Shown piece by piece: positions 865-6,461 of a DNA stretch of 20,039 bases. Both the position numbers and the translations under genes were made by a program. Under the pieces are notes generated by a model that saw nothing but the letters and a program-made list of their open reading frames with translations, made no database searches and was not told the origin of the DNA. The stretch's first letter is position 1. Each line of letters begins with the position of its first letter. Source of the stretch: a virus; the IMG/VR virus record IMGVR_UViG_3300030380_003005, positions 1-20,039 of that record; one strand, given 5' to 3'.

Positions 865-1374
865 TTATTTAGCAACATTTGTTCTCTCCAGATTATTTAT
901 TACAACCACCATTAAAGGTCTTAGGTATCCTGTCTTGGGTGCAATGTCATCATCGGTGTTAAATCTGTACCCATATGGGCCTTTAGGTTTCTCTAAAAAT
1001 CTAAGCTGAACATTATCTCTAGGCTTGTGTTCTTTTGCATTCCAAAAATACTGATGAAAGTACACAGAGTTTGTTGAAGCTGGCAACAAAAAAACACACA
1101 AGCATTGAGACTCTGAAGCTTTCTTAACAAACTTGGGTATGTATCTATCATACATAGGATGACAATATATAGTTTCATGATCCCAATCTTGCAGCAAAGC
1201 ATCTTGTTCTTTTGTCCAATACCTATCTACTAAATGATTTTTATCTGAAGCACATGCATCTACTGTAAAGTCAAACTCTTGCGATAAGTCTTCCCAGATT
1301 TCTTTGGGTGTGCGTATGTATTCCATAGGCAGAAGCTGTTTATCTTTAGCCAGTAAATTATAATGCTCTTTCAT
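865..1374 (-). CDS. Divergent Dam-type adenine methyltransferase homologue with altered catalytic motif, 169 aa
   Basis: This is a relative of the small phage N6-adenine methyltransferases and shares its layout with the gene at 57-512: R-T-P at residues 21-23, FDFTVDACAS at 34-43, a CVFLLPASTNS strand and an LRFLEKPKG strand. Where active enzymes have NPPY or DPPY, it reads CHPMYD (71-76). The catalytic Asn/Asp is therefore His and the second Pro is Met. It may be catalytically dead, may only bind DNA, or may have changed chemistry or substrate. The start at 1374 is chosen because a strong AGGAGGAG Shine-Dalgarno sits 6-7 bases upstream. It overlaps the end of the cytosine methyltransferase gene by 17 bases, which suggests coupled translation. 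Confidence 0.7.
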   Translation of the reverse strand: MKEHYNLLAKDKQLLPMEYIRTPKEIWEDLSQEFDFTVDACASDKNHLVDRYWTKEQDALLQDWDHETIYCHPMYDRYIPKFVKKASESQCLCVFLLPASTNSVYFHQYFWNAKEHKPRDNVQLRFLEKPKGPYGYRFNTDDDIAPKTGYLRPLMVVVINNLERTNVAK

Positions 1375-3241
1375 TTCTCTCCTCCTCTTCCAAGATAGCA
1401 AGGCCAATGTTGTATATGACTTGAGGCACAATAGAATTACCCAATGCTTTGAGTCGATTGACGCGTTCAGGGATGCCTGTTGCTACTCTTGGGATGTTGG
1501 GCTCTCGCTCGAATCCGAGATGTCCGTCCAGCCTTGCGGATATCCCATCAGCCATTCCACCCACTCCGGGTTCAGTGTGCCCTTGCCCGGTTTGTCCTTG
1601 ACTGCCATCGTCAGTCCCACTTGCTTGCCCTTCGCTAGCCTTCTCTGTATTGCTGGGTCGCTCATGTTCCCCCTGTCCCTGTTGTCCGAGGCGTTCGGTG
1701 TTGGCCACATCTTCTGCTCGATTGCCACTCGCTCCTCCAAGTTCCCCTTGTAGCCCCTGTCGTTGTTGTCCATCGCATTGACCACTGTGTCCATTGTCAT
1801 CGACATTCCTATCGAGCTCCTTGGCGTGGGATACATCTTGCTCTTGACTGCTCCTGCCAGCTTGCTCTTCTTGGCTAGCTTCTCGTAGTCCGTGTTCTCC
1901 CCTGTGTCCTTCCAGTCTCTGGCCGCTGGAGTTGGGAACATCTTGCCCGGATCCTTCTGCACTGCGTGCCTCAGAGCGAACTGAAGATTGATCCCCTCTT
2001 CTTTCTTTTTCTTCGCCCTTTTCTCCCAAGCTTCTAGTGTTTCGCTTTGATTCGCTAGATGATCTGAGTGTTGAGGAGTTGGGAACATCTTTTGATTCTG
2101 CCATTCTATTGACTGAAGAGTTGTCATCTCCTTGTCGTACTTGAGATCCTTCAAGTGAGGCTTGATTGTTTCCCAATCCTCGATTGACGGATGACTGAAC
2201 CCTGCTTTGTCCTTCCTGAACCAATGTTCGATTGTTGTCTTCTTGATGTCCGTCTTCTCTGCTAGTTCCTTGATTGTTGTCTGACTCCTTAGATACTTCA
2301 CAAACTTCTGCTGCTCTGGAAGATGAGGTCTCTCCACCATCTGATGATCTTGATAGAGTTCCATCAGCTCTGGATTCTTGAGAATCTCTTCCATCATGAT
2401 CCTGTCTGCTAATGTCTTTTGTATCGGTTGACCTGATGCCCTGTGTGTCTTGCCCTGTAGCATCTTCGTTGCATGCTTCAATGAGTCCTCCTTCGAGTCC
2501 ATTGTCGTTGGAGTTGGCCACATCAGATCTGGATGTGCCACCTGATCGTTCAAGCTGATTGGCATTCCCTTGTCCAACTTCATCTGCATTCTCTCCTTGC
2601 TCGATCCTCCCCTGCCGCAATGCGCGTCCGGGGTTCTCCATATCACTTGCTCCCTCAGATTCGAGCACCCTCCCTTCTTCGCTTCGTCTGACAGCTCCTC
2701 CTTTTTTCTCACTTGATTCACTCTCAATCCGTCCATCGCTTGAGGCGTTGCCCATAAACTTTCCGAGGATCCAGATTCGATCTCTTCGATGGGGCGCTTC
2801 GACACTGCAAGCTGGAATAATAAACGATTGCGTGGCGTAACCTTGGGCTTCCAAGTCAAGACACACATCATCGAGTGCCACATTGACGAAGCCACCAACG
2901 TTTTCGACAATGACCCAAGAGGGTTTTTTGTGTTTAATAATTTCATACATGTACGGCCAGAGGTGTCTGTCATCTTCCTTGCCTTTTTTCTTGCCTGCAA
3001 CACTGAACGGTTGGCACGGGATGCCTCCGCAGATGAGGTCGAAGTCTTGAATAATTCTTTCTGGTTCATTGCCTATCTCCTTTAGATCTTTATATATTGG
3101 CACATCTGGCCAATGTTTATTTAATACTTTACGACAGAAATCATCAAACTCACAGAAAGCAACAGTGTCAAAGCCACCTGTTGATTCTAATCCTAAGCTG
3201 AATCCTCCTATCCCGGAACAGATATCTAGTATCCTAATCAT
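1358..3241 (-). CDS. dcm: DNA cytosine-C5 methyltransferase with a long low-complexity insert, 627 aa
   Basis: The enzyme should methylate cytosine C5 in DNA using S-adenosylmethionine. Clear family motifs are the DICSGIGG SAM loop (motif I, 6-13), GGIPCQPFSVAG with nucleophile Cys76 (motif IV), ENV at 113-115 (motif VI), RRDRIW at 152-157 (motif VIII) and LGNSIVPQV near 600-608 (motif X). Residues from about 161 to 584, where the target-recognition domain should lie, are a Ser/Gly/Gln/Glu/Asp/Arg-rich low-complexity stretch with repeated D-V-[PA]-N-[ST] phrases. The whole protein is about twice the usual family length. This stretch is the out-of-frame shadow of a second protein (1483-3069). 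GGGAGGG lies before the ATG, which overlaps the preceding small gene by 8 bases. Base composition is visibly more GC-rich than the neighbours. How DNA is recognised without a normal domain is open. Confidence 0.9.
   Translation of the reverse strand: MIRILDICSGIGGFSLGLESTGGFDTVAFCEFDDFCRKVLNKHWPDVPIYKDLKEIGNEPERIIQDFDLICGGIPCQPFSVAGKKKGKEDDRHLWPYMYEIIKHKKPSWVIVENVGGFVNVALDDVCLDLEAQGYATQSFIIPACSVEAPHRRDRIWILGKFMGNASSDGRIESESSEKKGGAVRRSEEGRVLESEGASDMENPGRALRQGRIEQGENADEVGQGNANQLERSGGTSRSDVANSNDNGLEGGLIEACNEDATGQDTQGIRSTDTKDISRQDHDGRDSQESRADGTLSRSSDGGETSSSRAAEVCEVSKESDNNQGTSREDGHQEDNNRTLVQEGQSRVQSSVNRGLGNNQASLEGSQVRQGDDNSSVNRMAESKDVPNSSTLRSSSESKRNTRSLGEKGEEKERRGDQSSVRSEARSAEGSGQDVPNSSGQRLEGHRGEHGLREASQEEQAGRSSQEQDVSHAKELDRNVDDNGHSGQCDGQQRQGLQGELGGASGNRAEDVANTERLGQQGQGEHERPSNTEKASEGQASGTDDGSQGQTGQGHTEPGVGGMADGISARLDGHLGFEREPNIPRVATGIPERVNRLKALGNSIVPQVIYNIGLAILEEEERNERAL
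1483..3069 (-). CDS. Protein nested in the cytosine methyltransferase gene: aromatic-x-T-P repeats and HTH-like segment, 528 aa
   Basis: This frame lies wholly inside the methyltransferase gene, on the same strand but in another frame. Its ATG has an AAAGGAG Shine-Dalgarno 7-8 bases upstream, sitting within methyltransferase codons. The product looks ordered. Seven units begin with an aromatic-x-T-P tetrad (WATP near 105, WRTP near 143, WPTP near 184, FPTP near 327, FPTP near 376, YPTP near 412, WPTP near 453), most followed by a D or S a few residues later. TIKELAEKTDIKKTTIEHWF, at about 263-285, looks like a helix-turn-helix. The end (503-520) reads NPEWVEWLMGYPQGW. I recall similar tails in proteins found with phage cytosine methyltransferases, often left as hypothetical or labelled methyltransferase. 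A DNA-recognition partner supplied in trans is my inference. The alternative is that only the outer frame is translated. Confidence 0.65.
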   Translation of the reverse strand: MNQKELFKTSTSSAEASRANRSVLQARKKARKMTDTSGRTCMKLLNTKNPLGSLSKTLVASSMWHSMMCVLTWKPKVTPRNRLLFQLAVSKRPIEEIESGSSESLWATPQAMDGLRVNQVRKKEELSDEAKKGGCSNLREQVIWRTPDAHCGRGGSSKERMQMKLDKGMPISLNDQVAHPDLMWPTPTTMDSKEDSLKHATKMLQGKTHRASGQPIQKTLADRIMMEEILKNPELMELYQDHQMVERPHLPEQQKFVKYLRSQTTIKELAEKTDIKKTTIEHWFRKDKAGFSHPSIEDWETIKPHLKDLKYDKEMTTLQSIEWQNQKMFPTPQHSDHLANQSETLEAWEKRAKKKKEEGINLQFALRHAVQKDPGKMFPTPAARDWKDTGENTDYEKLAKKSKLAGAVKSKMYPTPRSSIGMSMTMDTVVNAMDNNDRGYKGNLEERVAIEQKMWPTPNASDNRDRGNMSDPAIQRRLAKGKQVGLTMAVKDKPGKGTLNPEWVEWLMGYPQGWTDISDSSESPTSQE

Positions 3242-3458
3242 TTGTTTCCCTCCCTTTAAACCACATGCGTGTGCAATATCTTCTGATGATTGCTACCACT
3301 GTTAACACCCCAGCTTGTGCCACTGAGATGATCAATGCATTCTGCGTGAACATCAAGCATATTGTCAGCACCACCCACACCAAGGGTAGATTGATTGCTG
3401 TGCCCATAAACGTATCAGCCATTGATTCTTTGAGTGCTGCTTTGTCTAACTTAATCAT
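3234..3458 (-). CDS. Small two-helix membrane protein, 74 aa
   Basis: This is a short hydrophobic protein with two likely membrane helices, at about residues 20-38 (INLPLVWVVLTICLMF) and 40-58 (LIISVAQAGVLTVVAII). The basic tail IIRRYCTRMWFKGR suggests the C-terminus lies in the cytoplasm. It resembles small two-helix phage proteins of the DUF7220 type, from memory and not from a search. The function is unknown. It overlaps both neighbours by 8 bases (the ATG lies within the end of the PAPS-reductase-like gene, and its stop lies within the start of the cytosine methyltransferase gene). It lacks a clear Shine-Dalgarno site, so translation is probably coupled to the gene before it. Confidence 0.7.
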   Translation of the reverse strand: MIKLDKAALKESMADTFMGTAINLPLVWVVLTICLMFTQNALIISVAQAGVLTVVAIIRRYCTRMWFKGRETND

Positions 3459-4296
3459 GACAAAAACAAGTCATCTGTTCATCGAACATGTCTTGCTCCT
3501 CATAGTGAGGTTGCTTGCTTATATCTAGAAGCTTGATGTAGTTGTCGCTGTCCTTCCTGAAGGTAGCGCCAGCATCTTTGCCAAACTTCTGCTCTTGTTT
3601 TATCCACCAGTCTGCCATCTCTGGCCTTTCCTTTAAGAGTTTGATCTTGGTATCCTTGCCCTTGAGAAAACATAAGTCACAGTTACCAGCCAATGTTTTG
3701 CCACTGAAGTTTGTTAGATTCAAATCAAAGTTTTGTTTCTCCCAGAAATCCGTCACATCTTTTACATCATGCTTGGCATGATACATAGGCAAGACATTCT
3801 CCCATGGGTTGTTCTGTCTCATGGCGCTTGACACTCTTCGAGGCTCATCGTATCTAAGGCCTATCACGTTGTACCAAGTCTTGTGTCCTTTCAACTTGCG
3901 CATGAACCTTGACATGACTTTGACCTTGAGTTCACTGGTGCAGAACCTGGCCACAGGATTGGGTAAATATTTTCTTCTATCAATTAAAGCTTCAAAAGGT
4001 TCACCATTTCTGCTTGCTGTTTCGTAGGTGACTTCTTTGGTGCGATAGACAGGACGCTCTTCACCAAAGTACAACTCCAACCAATGTATCTTCACGCCCC
4101 ACTTCTGTCCTATCTCATGTACAAAGTCCAATGTTTCCGGGGCTTCCTTGCCTGTGTTAGCAAAGGTAACGTATATATCTTCAGGCAATGTTCCACCATG
4201 CGCTTGAATAATATTCCATAGCATGAACCCGGAAGTTCGACCACCACTAAAGCTAATCAAAGCTGGCCCTGCTATCTTGTAAGGATTAGACTCCAT
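3451..4296 (-). CDS. PAPS reductase / DndC-like ATP-pyrophosphatase family protein, 281 aa
   Basis: The fold is the adenine nucleotide alpha-hydrolase type. SFSGGRTS at residues 15-22 is the PP-loop that binds ATP or PAPS, followed by FANTGKEAPETLDFV. True PAPS reductases make sulfite. DndC, a relative, activates sulfur for DNA phosphorothioation and carries an iron-sulfur cluster. Here Cys119 (in RFCTSELK), the pair Cys206/Cys209 (NCDLC) and C277/C279 (CFC) at the extreme end could ligate a cluster, which favours a DndC-like or tRNA-thiolation-like role over simple sulfate reduction. No dndD/E homologue is visible, so phosphorothioation is unproven. The ATG at 4296 follows GAGAGA. An upstream in-frame TTG at 4308 is less likely. 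It lies between replication and methyltransferase genes in one tightly overlapping operon. Confidence 0.75.
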   Translation of the reverse strand: MESNPYKIAGPALISFSGGRTSGFMLWNIIQAHGGTLPEDIYVTFANTGKEAPETLDFVHEIGQKWGVKIHWLELYFGEERPVYRTKEVTYETASRNGEPFEALIDRRKYLPNPVARFCTSELKVKVMSRFMRKLKGHKTWYNVIGLRYDEPRRVSSAMRQNNPWENVLPMYHAKHDVKDVTDFWEKQNFDLNLTNFSGKTLAGNCDLCFLKGKDTKIKLLKERPEMADWWIKQEQKFGKDAGATFRKDSDNYIKLLDISKQPHYEEQDMFDEQMTCFCHD

Positions 4297-4525
4297 AGAT
4301 TCTCTCAACTTGTCCCATTAAATCTTCGTGTGCGTTGTGCAAAAAATCTCTTTGCTCATAATAATTTTTATTTGTTTCTTGGGTTTTTATAAGCTGTCTT
4401 TGCAATCTTCCAATCAAGCGAGCTAGATCTAGCTTCTTATCAGCAACCACTGCAAGCTGATGTTTGACCATCAACTCCAAGACCTCTTCAATCGGATCTG
4501 TTATTGTCTCTAAGTTATCCATCAT
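4286..4525 (-). CDS. Small charged helical protein, 79 aa, unknown function
   Basis: I do not recognise this protein. It is nearly all helical in appearance, with a likely coiled coil across residues 15-60 (IEEVLELMVKHQLAVVADKK followed by LARLIGRLQRQLIKTQ) and no membrane segment. It starts in GGGAGGATGATG. The Shine-Dalgarno touches the first ATG, so the second ATG (4522) is an equally good start. It overlaps the end of the primase-helicase gene by 11 bases and the next gene by the same amount, and belongs to the same leftward operon. Such small proteins next to replicative helicases are sometimes accessory factors, but nothing here shows that. Confidence 0.65.
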   Translation of the reverse strand: MMDNLETITDPIEEVLELMVKHQLAVVADKKLDLARLIGRLQRQLIKTQETNKNYYEQRDFLHNAHEDLMGQVERIYGV

Positions 4526-6461
4526 CCTCCCAAGGTTTCTTCATCTCGTTATCTGCTAAGTAATACCAAGCGTTCTTACCTGGCACACTGTGAGTTTTGA
4601 CTCTCTCTGCTAGATACTTCTGCACATGTGACACTGCATACCTTGCGGCTCTCTCTCCTGAAGCCATGTCGCTTTCCTTCAATGCTTGTCTTGCTAGCAG
4701 TTCTAGTTCTTGCCTTGTATAAAACTTGCGCCTATCCATTCCAGCTGCTACCACTCTTGCTATCTCTACTTCGTCTGGTGAGTCTGATGCATCCACCACC
4801 CTAAAGAAGCCACGATCAAAATCAAAGTAGGCCAAATGTTGATCTGGTTCTCTTGCGTTCCTTGCCTCGTAAAAGATATCGATGTTAGGTTTCTTACCAG
4901 ACAGCTTGATACCAGAGTCCATCCAACCAGCGAAGGCACTACCACCACGAGCTGACATGAACGACAGATCATCTGCTCTCTCTTTACCAGTGTGATGAGC
5001 AATGATGACAGCAACACCAAAGAGTTCTATCAGCTTATCGACACGCGATAACATCTCGTGGATCTCTGAGTTAGAGTTCTCTTCTCCACTAAAGAAGTTA
5101 ATGACTGGATCGATCATGACAATGTCAGGTTTGTGATAGTCAATACTTGTGGCTATCTCATCAATGTCTTTGTCTCTCATGATGTTCTTTCTTAATCTTC
5201 CAGAAGCTATAAGGTTTGACTTACCAAGATCTAAGATCTCTCTGTCATGAATGAAAGGTTGATAGTACATGTCGATTCTTTTCTTTAAGAACTCATGAAT
5301 GATCTCTGCCTGTAACCACATAACCTTTAAAGGTCTATTGAATTGTTTACCCATAAACTCTGTGCCTGTTGTGGCCGCAGCAGCAAATGCACCCAACCAA
5401 TGAGACTTACCAATCTTTGGTTTACCCAAGAGCAAGACTCTTGATTGTTCAAAGACAAATGCATCACCCCAAAACTGTTCGATGCGATCTGAATCCATGC
5501 CATCCCAAAAAGGATCACCAAATGTTTTAAGGCCAAGCGGATCTCTTTCAGGTCTCTCTTCTTTTTTTTGTTGTTCGATAGGATCTTCTTGATCCATGAT
5601 CTCTTTGAGTTCGTCTGTTAGTTGTATCTGCCACTGACTTGTCTTCCACTCTGTGATACCAGCTACATCCTCTGGGTTTCTTTTCAAGTGCCCAGTGCAA
5701 ATACTGTTTACTGTTTGCAATACTTCTTGCACGCTCATGGGTGGATTGTTTGTTTGATTCCAATCCAAAGCTTTGATGATGACTTCACGCATACCCCAAC
5801 CTTCGAGGATCCACTTGCCTACCAATCTTGCAAGCGTATCGTTTCTCATGCCACTGCCAACACCATCCATTGATAGCGGTGTCTTTAAGTCTGAGTTTGA
5901 TTTGCCTACATTATTAAAGTCATAGATCACATTCATGTCTTGACTTGATAGTATGGGCAAGTCATCCATGTCGCTTGGCTCAACACCGTCCACGCTTTCA
6001 AACATGTAGTGGTCCGAAGGTGAGACCATGACATAGCCACCCTCTCCTCTGACATCAAGTCTGCCTGTGGTGTTTCTTATTTTTAGATCTGGATTGATGG
6101 CATAGAAATAATGATAGCCACCTCTTGGTGTTTTTTGTTTGAGTGTTGTTCTTGTGATCTGTCCTGATTCACAAAAGTCACAGGCCTCTTGTGTGTCTGC
6201 ATCGAGCACCACAAAATTAATTCCAGTGACAGCTGCCCAATTACAGTTTGGAAATTGTAAGTACCATTGTTTGATTTCTTTTAAGTGTGCTTGCTTTTCA
6301 ATATAGTTTGCCCACTTAACTCTTGGTGTCTTAGCCCAGCGCTTAACCAACACATCATCGTCTTCATAAGGATGTCTTGTTTTGAAATAATCTGGTATGA
6401 CATCTGTCTTGGATCCACAAGGTATTAAATGAAAGTTATTCTCATAAAAAGAAACCAACAT
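4515..6461 (-). CDS. Bifunctional primase-polymerase / RepA-like helicase, about 648 aa
   Basis: A two-part replication protein. The N-terminal half is an archaeo-eukaryotic primase-polymerase domain: the metal-binding VVLDADT motif near residue 84, TPRGGYHYFY, and LDVRGEGGYVMVSPS are its signatures. The C-terminal half is a RecA-fold RepA-like ATPase with the Walker A loop GKPKIGKS near residue 345, a Walker B-like IVMIDPVINF, and IAHHTGK. A likely winged-helix tail follows near the end. Together these would prime and unwind phage DNA. The first ATG is at 6461, preceded only by the purine-rich AAGAGAAAAGAA. The frame is open further upstream to a TTG at 6557, but that would overlap the HTH gene by 37 bases. 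A better AAAGGAG (about 6487) has no normal start codon behind it in frame. The start is therefore uncertain by up to 32 codons. Confidence 0.88.
   Translation of the reverse strand: MLVSFYENNFHLIPCGSKTDVIPDYFKTRHPYEDDDVLVKRWAKTPRVKWANYIEKQAHLKEIKQWYLQFPNCNWAAVTGINFVVLDADTQEACDFCESGQITRTTLKQKTPRGGYHYFYAINPDLKIRNTTGRLDVRGEGGYVMVSPSDHYMFESVDGVEPSDMDDLPILSSQDMNVIYDFNNVGKSNSDLKTPLSMDGVGSGMRNDTLARLVGKWILEGWGMREVIIKALDWNQTNNPPMSVQEVLQTVNSICTGHLKRNPEDVAGITEWKTSQWQIQLTDELKEIMDQEDPIEQQKKEERPERDPLGLKTFGDPFWDGMDSDRIEQFWGDAFVFEQSRVLLLGKPKIGKSHWLGAFAAAATTGTEFMGKQFNRPLKVMWLQAEIIHEFLKKRIDMYYQPFIHDREILDLGKSNLIASGRLRKNIMRDKDIDEIATSIDYHKPDIVMIDPVINFFSGEENSNSEIHEMLSRVDKLIELFGVAVIIAHHTGKERADDLSFMSARGGSAFAGWMDSGIKLSGKKPNIDIFYEARNAREPDQHLAYFDFDRGFFRVVDASDSPDEVEIARVVAAGMDRRKFYTRQELELLARQALKESDMASGERAARYAVSHVQKYLAERVKTHSVPGKNAWYYLADNEMKKPWEDDG

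Follow-up and report, generated by a model that had tools for sequence, protein, structure and literature searches.

Does the long open reading frame (ORF) nested within the C5 cytosine methyltransferase (MTase) gene of this virus encode a protein of its own, and if so, what has that protein to do with the enzyme whose DNA it shares? The window, that is, the whole stretch of DNA analysed, is a virus record of 20,039 bases. An earlier note on this DNA, made from its letters, had described a 528-codon ORF on the same strand inside the MTase gene, MTase motifs I, IV, VI and VIII at one end of the outer frame with X at the other, and an AAAGGAG site belonging to the inner ORF. Each of these was located in the window. 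The outer and inner ORFs are referred to below as alpha and beta, and their features are as follows.

3241..1358, minus strand: alpha (outer ORF), large domain of a C5 cytosine MTase, 627 aa, ATG start
3226-3197, minus strand: alpha motif I
3025-2993, minus strand: alpha motif IV
2911-2888, minus strand: alpha motif VI
2800-2762, minus strand: alpha motif VIII
1456-1421, minus strand: alpha motif X, RLKALGNSIVPQ, conserved in alignment A4
3083-3077, minus strand: AAAGGAG, ribosome-binding site of beta, 7 bases upstream of the ATG at 3069-3067
3069..1483, minus strand: beta (inner ORF), +1 frame, 528 aa, ATG start, entirely within alpha
2755..3069, minus strand: overlap region A, beta N-domain (aa 1-105) over alpha motifs IV-VIII
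1582..2754, minus strand: overlap region B, beta module array, where the alpha frame is a linker
2754, 2640, 2520, 2085, 1938, 1833 and 1707, minus strand: starts of the beta modules
2209..2277, minus strand: helix-turn-helix-like stretch in the third module (B), beta aa 265-287, weak matches only
1519..1581, minus strand: motif-IX-like tail of beta, GTLNPEWVEWLMGYPQGWTDI, alignable with the IX-X end that actinobacterial MTases of the single-frame type carry in frame

Alpha was assigned to the C5 MTases on its matches to PF00145 (7.3e-42) and phrog_363 (5.5e-67) and on the presence of the catalytic motifs, with I, IV, VI and VIII in the N-terminal part and X at the C-terminus. Motif IX was not recognisable in the alpha chain, an IX-like tail being found in the +1 frame only. 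The position of the target-recognition domain (TRD) is occupied in alpha by an open linker of about 400 residues that is rich in G, S, E, R, Q and D (composition G15 S14 E12 R10 Q9 D8) and whose amino acids change freely among relatives. Judged by its sequence, alpha appears to have no foldable-looking TRD between motifs VIII and X.

The locus is flanked by genes for a Dam-like adenine MTase (PF05869) and a PAPS-reductase-like protein (PF01507), at 865-1371 and 3451-4308 of the window on the minus strand. PAPS-reductase genes also lie near the locus in phages C72C1 and BKO1-TP3, in the latter together with a putative adenine MTase. A non-coding-looking stretch at about 630-860 of the window is dense in TGCAC/GTGCA-like repeats and could be a regulatory or origin region.

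Beta is made up of an N-domain, seven modules each marked by W/F/Y-[P/A/R]-T-P and the motif-IX-like tail. Of 248 homologues, 172 have a Shine-Dalgarno (SD) core ahead of their first inner start, whereas such a core precedes 15 % of internal start-like codons.

The openness of the two frames was assessed by codon shuffling. When the alpha protein was held fixed and its synonymous codons were shuffled, the inner frame acquired a mean of 12.4 stops, and a mean of 21.1 if the codon usage of other genes was applied instead. With the beta protein held fixed, the outer frame after motif VIII acquired means of 14.7 and 41.5 stops, respectively. Not one of 20,000 shuffles was stop-free in either direction, and chance is therefore no explanation for the double open frame.

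The earlier note had also proposed comparing substitutions in both frames across homologues. In the flanks that belong to the outer frame only, differences between relatives fell at outer codon position 3 (19.6-29.3 %). In the module region, inner position 3 differed by 12.1 % among close relatives and by 24.3 % among the others, with inner positions 1 and 2 at 0.5-2 %; these percentages were taken from all pairs of relatives, which are not independent, and a separate test on disjoint pairs found inner position 3 to be favoured after motif VIII in 33 of 33 (p=1.2e-10). Over region A, outer-synonymous transitions were reduced to 3.8 % among close relatives, against 11.4 % in the upstream flank, and to 8.6 % against 17.2 % among other relatives, while transitions that are synonymous in the inner frame and change the outer protein became commoner. 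On this evidence both frames are constrained in region A, where motifs IV-VIII lie over beta aa 1-105, in agreement with the overlap with conserved MTase sequence noted before. The inner frame is, by the same comparisons, under selection, that is, a gene, and beta is almost certainly translated.

The relationship of beta to the MTase is most apparent where motifs IX and X change frame. In three Streptomyces genomes and the Gordonia phages CheeseTouch and JKSyngboy, motifs I-VIII and X share their frame with a tail homologous to that of beta. The beta tail resembles motif IX, and these single-frame relatives support the link. At the same loci IX is thus read in the outer frame, with the modules still in +1. 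The C-terminal parts of the single-frame MTases that were scanned (L248, CheeseTouch and JKSyngboy) match phrog_1008, the family to which beta belongs, at 3e-32, 1e-32 and 6e-43, and the PF00145 alignment of the CheeseTouch enzyme extends to position 316 of 324. In L041, L042, L138, L215 and Gordonia phage Float294, the outer frame terminates shortly after VIII and motif X is found in the inner frame; Float294 is annotated with two genes that overlap by 14 bases. In L080 and L104 a single stop interrupts the outer frame between VIII and X, and the inner frame is intact. Pfam DNA_methylase scored above its cut-off in none of four split-type beta proteins, and profile-profile comparison of the IX-X tail with three ordinary MTases aligned motif X alone, weakly.

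To what extent the arrangement is general was determined from loci picked by the MTase N-terminal domain only, and not by the inner ORF, taking the best 80 matches per collection. Within these, all 78 viral loci that were newly fetched had the motif-IX-like tail in +1, as did 70 of the 80 from bacteria. In 77 of the 78 viral loci X lay in frame 0, and in L138 it was in +1 together with the tail. The other ten bacterial loci among the best 80 included the three of Streptomyces type, with IX in the outer frame, one with a divergent +1 tail seen by eye (L240), one that appears frameshifted (L219) and one interrupted by a contig end (L264). Homologues with a broken inner frame beside an intact MTase, which the earlier note had named as a refutation of the inner gene, were not clearly found in the survey. 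The +1 frame is broken by stops in L283, L285 and L290, which are ordinary one-frame MTases with motif IX in the outer frame, and the nested ORF is shortened in L262, where motif X was not found.

Three further loci are recorded here as separate observations. In a Thiothrix MAG (L249, about 3000-3950), a C5 MTase that otherwise looks ordinary has a TRD-like sequence and X in frame and a canonical-looking IX (RRLMPSECEKLQGFPPGWTEI) in +1; either a frameshift or a case like EcoHK31I that arose independently could account for this. The outer frame of mycobacteriophage Ochi17 (L047, 950-1900) looks frameshifted between IV and VIII, and three genes near it are annotated DNA methylase. L208 has an unusually long inner-frame ORF (3167-4972, about 600 codons), and motif X was not found in its outer frame.

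Proteins of the beta type are already in databases, mostly as 'DNA methyltransferase' or 'hypothetical protein', as the earlier note had supposed in speaking of a family known under poor names. A profile search with the inner protein, which it had likewise suggested, matched phrog_1008 at 5e-46, making beta a member of that family; the family record is labelled 'DNA methyltransferase' and contains neither the nesting nor a small-domain role. Relatives of beta appear as 'g55 internal gene' in Paenibacillus phage Shelly, as 'putative Mte8-like protein' in Escherichia phage K1ind1 and as a second 'DNA methyltransferase' in the annotation of Xanthomonas phage PhiXhv-18, and tblastn with two compact beta homologues matched 219 and 225 phage records. 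The name 'Mte8' gave no lead, and the open-access literature searched contained no description of a nested or overprinted phage methyltransferase gene apart from the ShiLan element discussed below. A PDB sequence search with the beta profile gave no meaningful match.

The modules are the most variable part of beta. Their order in the window is eYBOiTE, against eYBiTE in L008, YcOBiTIE in L010 and QeYiTE in L018, and among close relatives 173 module copies of 39 types were counted, in shuffled orders. With the pattern that was applied, homologues show 0-9 modules, most of them having 1-4. In all three frames of 283 loci, the strict pattern [WFYL]PTPx[AS] was found 433 times, each time in +1, so that none of the 433 occurrences is in frame with motifs I-VIII; this restriction arises in part because the shared DNA reads VANT-like in the outer frame. 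Most module types had no database match. The helix-turn-helix-like stretch of module B matched Pfam HTH_28 at 0.009, which is below the cut-off, and the DNA-binding protein family phrog_4151 at 0.0035. The description of the inner protein as ordered-looking was not supported by structure prediction, since AlphaFold2 returned low confidence for beta alone (mean pLDDT 52, pTM 0.24), as it did for a compact 155-aa homologue (pLDDT 64, pTM 0.28). As no confident fold of beta was obtained, the assignment of module function is based on position and shuffling. By analogy with multispecific phage MTases, we lean towards the modules being TRD cassettes that confer several specificities.

In M.HhaI-type enzymes, the large domain contains motifs I-VIII and X and the small domain contains the TRD and motif IX (PMC3404938). 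The alpha and beta frames are split along this same line, which points to a two-subunit C5 cytosine-DNA MTase encoded by fully nested genes, with beta as the putative DNA-recognition small domain. We give this reading a probability of roughly 0.85. That alpha lacks IX and appears to have no foldable-looking TRD, and that beta has an IX-like end and a module array at the TRD position, argues for beta being a second subunit rather than an unrelated protein. The earlier note was borne out as to a nested, selected gene with its own ribosome-binding site, and had missed these features of alpha and beta.

Under the two-subunit reading, alpha would be the catalytic large domain, running from motifs I-VIII through a flexible linker to motif X. 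Beta would be initiated separately in the +1 frame from its own SD site and would form the DNA-recognition small domain, consisting of the N-domain, the WPTP array in replacement of a TRD, and motif IX. The two would assemble into an active enzyme in the manner of the large and small domains within the M.HhaI chain. The alpha linker would then be largely an out-of-frame shadow of the beta modules, kept open mainly to hold motif X attached. The modules would most likely act as exchangeable target-recognition cassettes, and an array of them may allow several sequences to be methylated and several host restriction enzymes to be evaded. We infer the translation of beta, the alpha-beta complex, the recognition of targets by the modules and the anti-restriction role. 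The chances are about even that C5 MTases of this kind are widespread in phages and prophages, with the whole recognition domain as a nested out-of-frame array of cassettes, each reading a different target, and with specificity changed by recombination of modules within a gene that codes in both frames.

Other explanations of the locus were weighed against this reading. Two programmed frameshifts could produce a single MTase chain that passes from alpha (I-VIII) to the inner frame (modules and IX) and back to alpha (X); such a chain would join all the motifs and tolerate the changes of frame of IX and X. It leaves unexplained, however, why the inner frame is constrained over motifs IV-VIII (region A), which lie upstream of the point where a shift would be of use, why an SD site precedes the inner start, and why alpha is open through the modules where X lies in alpha and not in L041, L042, L138 and L215. 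We consider it unlikely. We judge it just as unlikely that beta is a second protein of unrelated function whose gene has been overprinted on that of the MTase. Viruses often carry overprinted genes (PMC8227390), and beta is only weakly similar to anything else, but its C-terminus matches the MTase IX-X region of single-frame relatives, motif X joins beta in the split relatives, and beta is present where alpha is without IX and absent from the three ordinary MTases in the same survey.

It is highly improbable that the inner frame goes untranslated, as a by-product of the MTase sequence and of base composition. The frames are indeed tied by the same DNA over motifs IV-VIII, and WPTP in +1 corresponds to a VANT-like outer sequence, yet no shuffle among 20,000 was stop-free, the inner frame was favoured in all 33 pairs over the module region, and it stays open in L041, L042, L138, L215, L080 and L104, where the outer frame is broken. 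Least probable of all is an out-of-frame homing endonuclease insertion, for which there is a precedent in the ShiLan element of mycobacteriophage methylases, an ORF that has no stops and lies out of frame within the methylase gene (PMC11855218). Pfam and PHROG profile searches found no HNH or other nuclease domain in beta, which is near-universal rather than patchy in the survey of the best 80 matches per collection and overlaps the MTase motifs rather than sitting in an insertion. The homing endonuclease, the untranslated by-product and the unrelated overprinted protein were all set aside on these points.

If the locus does encode a two-subunit MTase, what is annotated as one phage cytosine methyltransferase gene would in many cases be a two-gene locus, and an outer ORF cloned with the inner one silenced would give an inactive enzyme. 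Long genes, one nested completely in the other and both contributing to one enzyme, would also make up a large natural family in dsDNA phages, and new cytosine-methylation specificities could be sought and tested among the shuffled modules. Errors of annotation can be seen in E. coli XYEH3314 (L295, 1863-3032), where RefSeq has two partial pseudogenes, although the outer ORF is fully open and the nested ORF intact.

M.EcoHK31I (YGGCCR) is a C5 MTase of two polypeptides, of which the large one has motifs I-VIII and X and the small one IX (PMC3404938). Judged by motif layout it is the closest known case, sharing with the window this same distribution of motifs between the large and small chains. 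The two differ in that the large subunit of M.EcoHK31I contains a predicted TRD, whereas that of the window has a low-complexity linker and the small subunit carries the module array. The beta ORF of M.EcoHK31I likewise lies in an alternate frame within the alpha gene. The two-subunit M.AquI (CYCGRG) also resembles the window in having the catalytic motifs I-VIII in one chain and IX in another, and its I-VIII / IX-X split is common to L041, L042, L138, L215 and Float294. Unlike M.AquI, the window keeps X in alpha, with the genes fully nested, and does not have IX and X together in the small subunit. The ShiLan HNH element is similar in that it, too, gives a phage methylase gene a second, out-of-frame ORF, but it contains a nuclease domain and is a homing insertion of patchy distribution, neither of which is true of beta. 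Finally, the multispecific C5 MTases of SPbeta-type phages resemble the window in having several recognition cassettes at the TRD position, in phages. Their TRDs are reportedly, in the work of Trautner et al. in 1996, in frame within one chain and have known targets. In contrast to that type, the modules of the window lie in a second frame, apart from the chain with the catalytic motifs.
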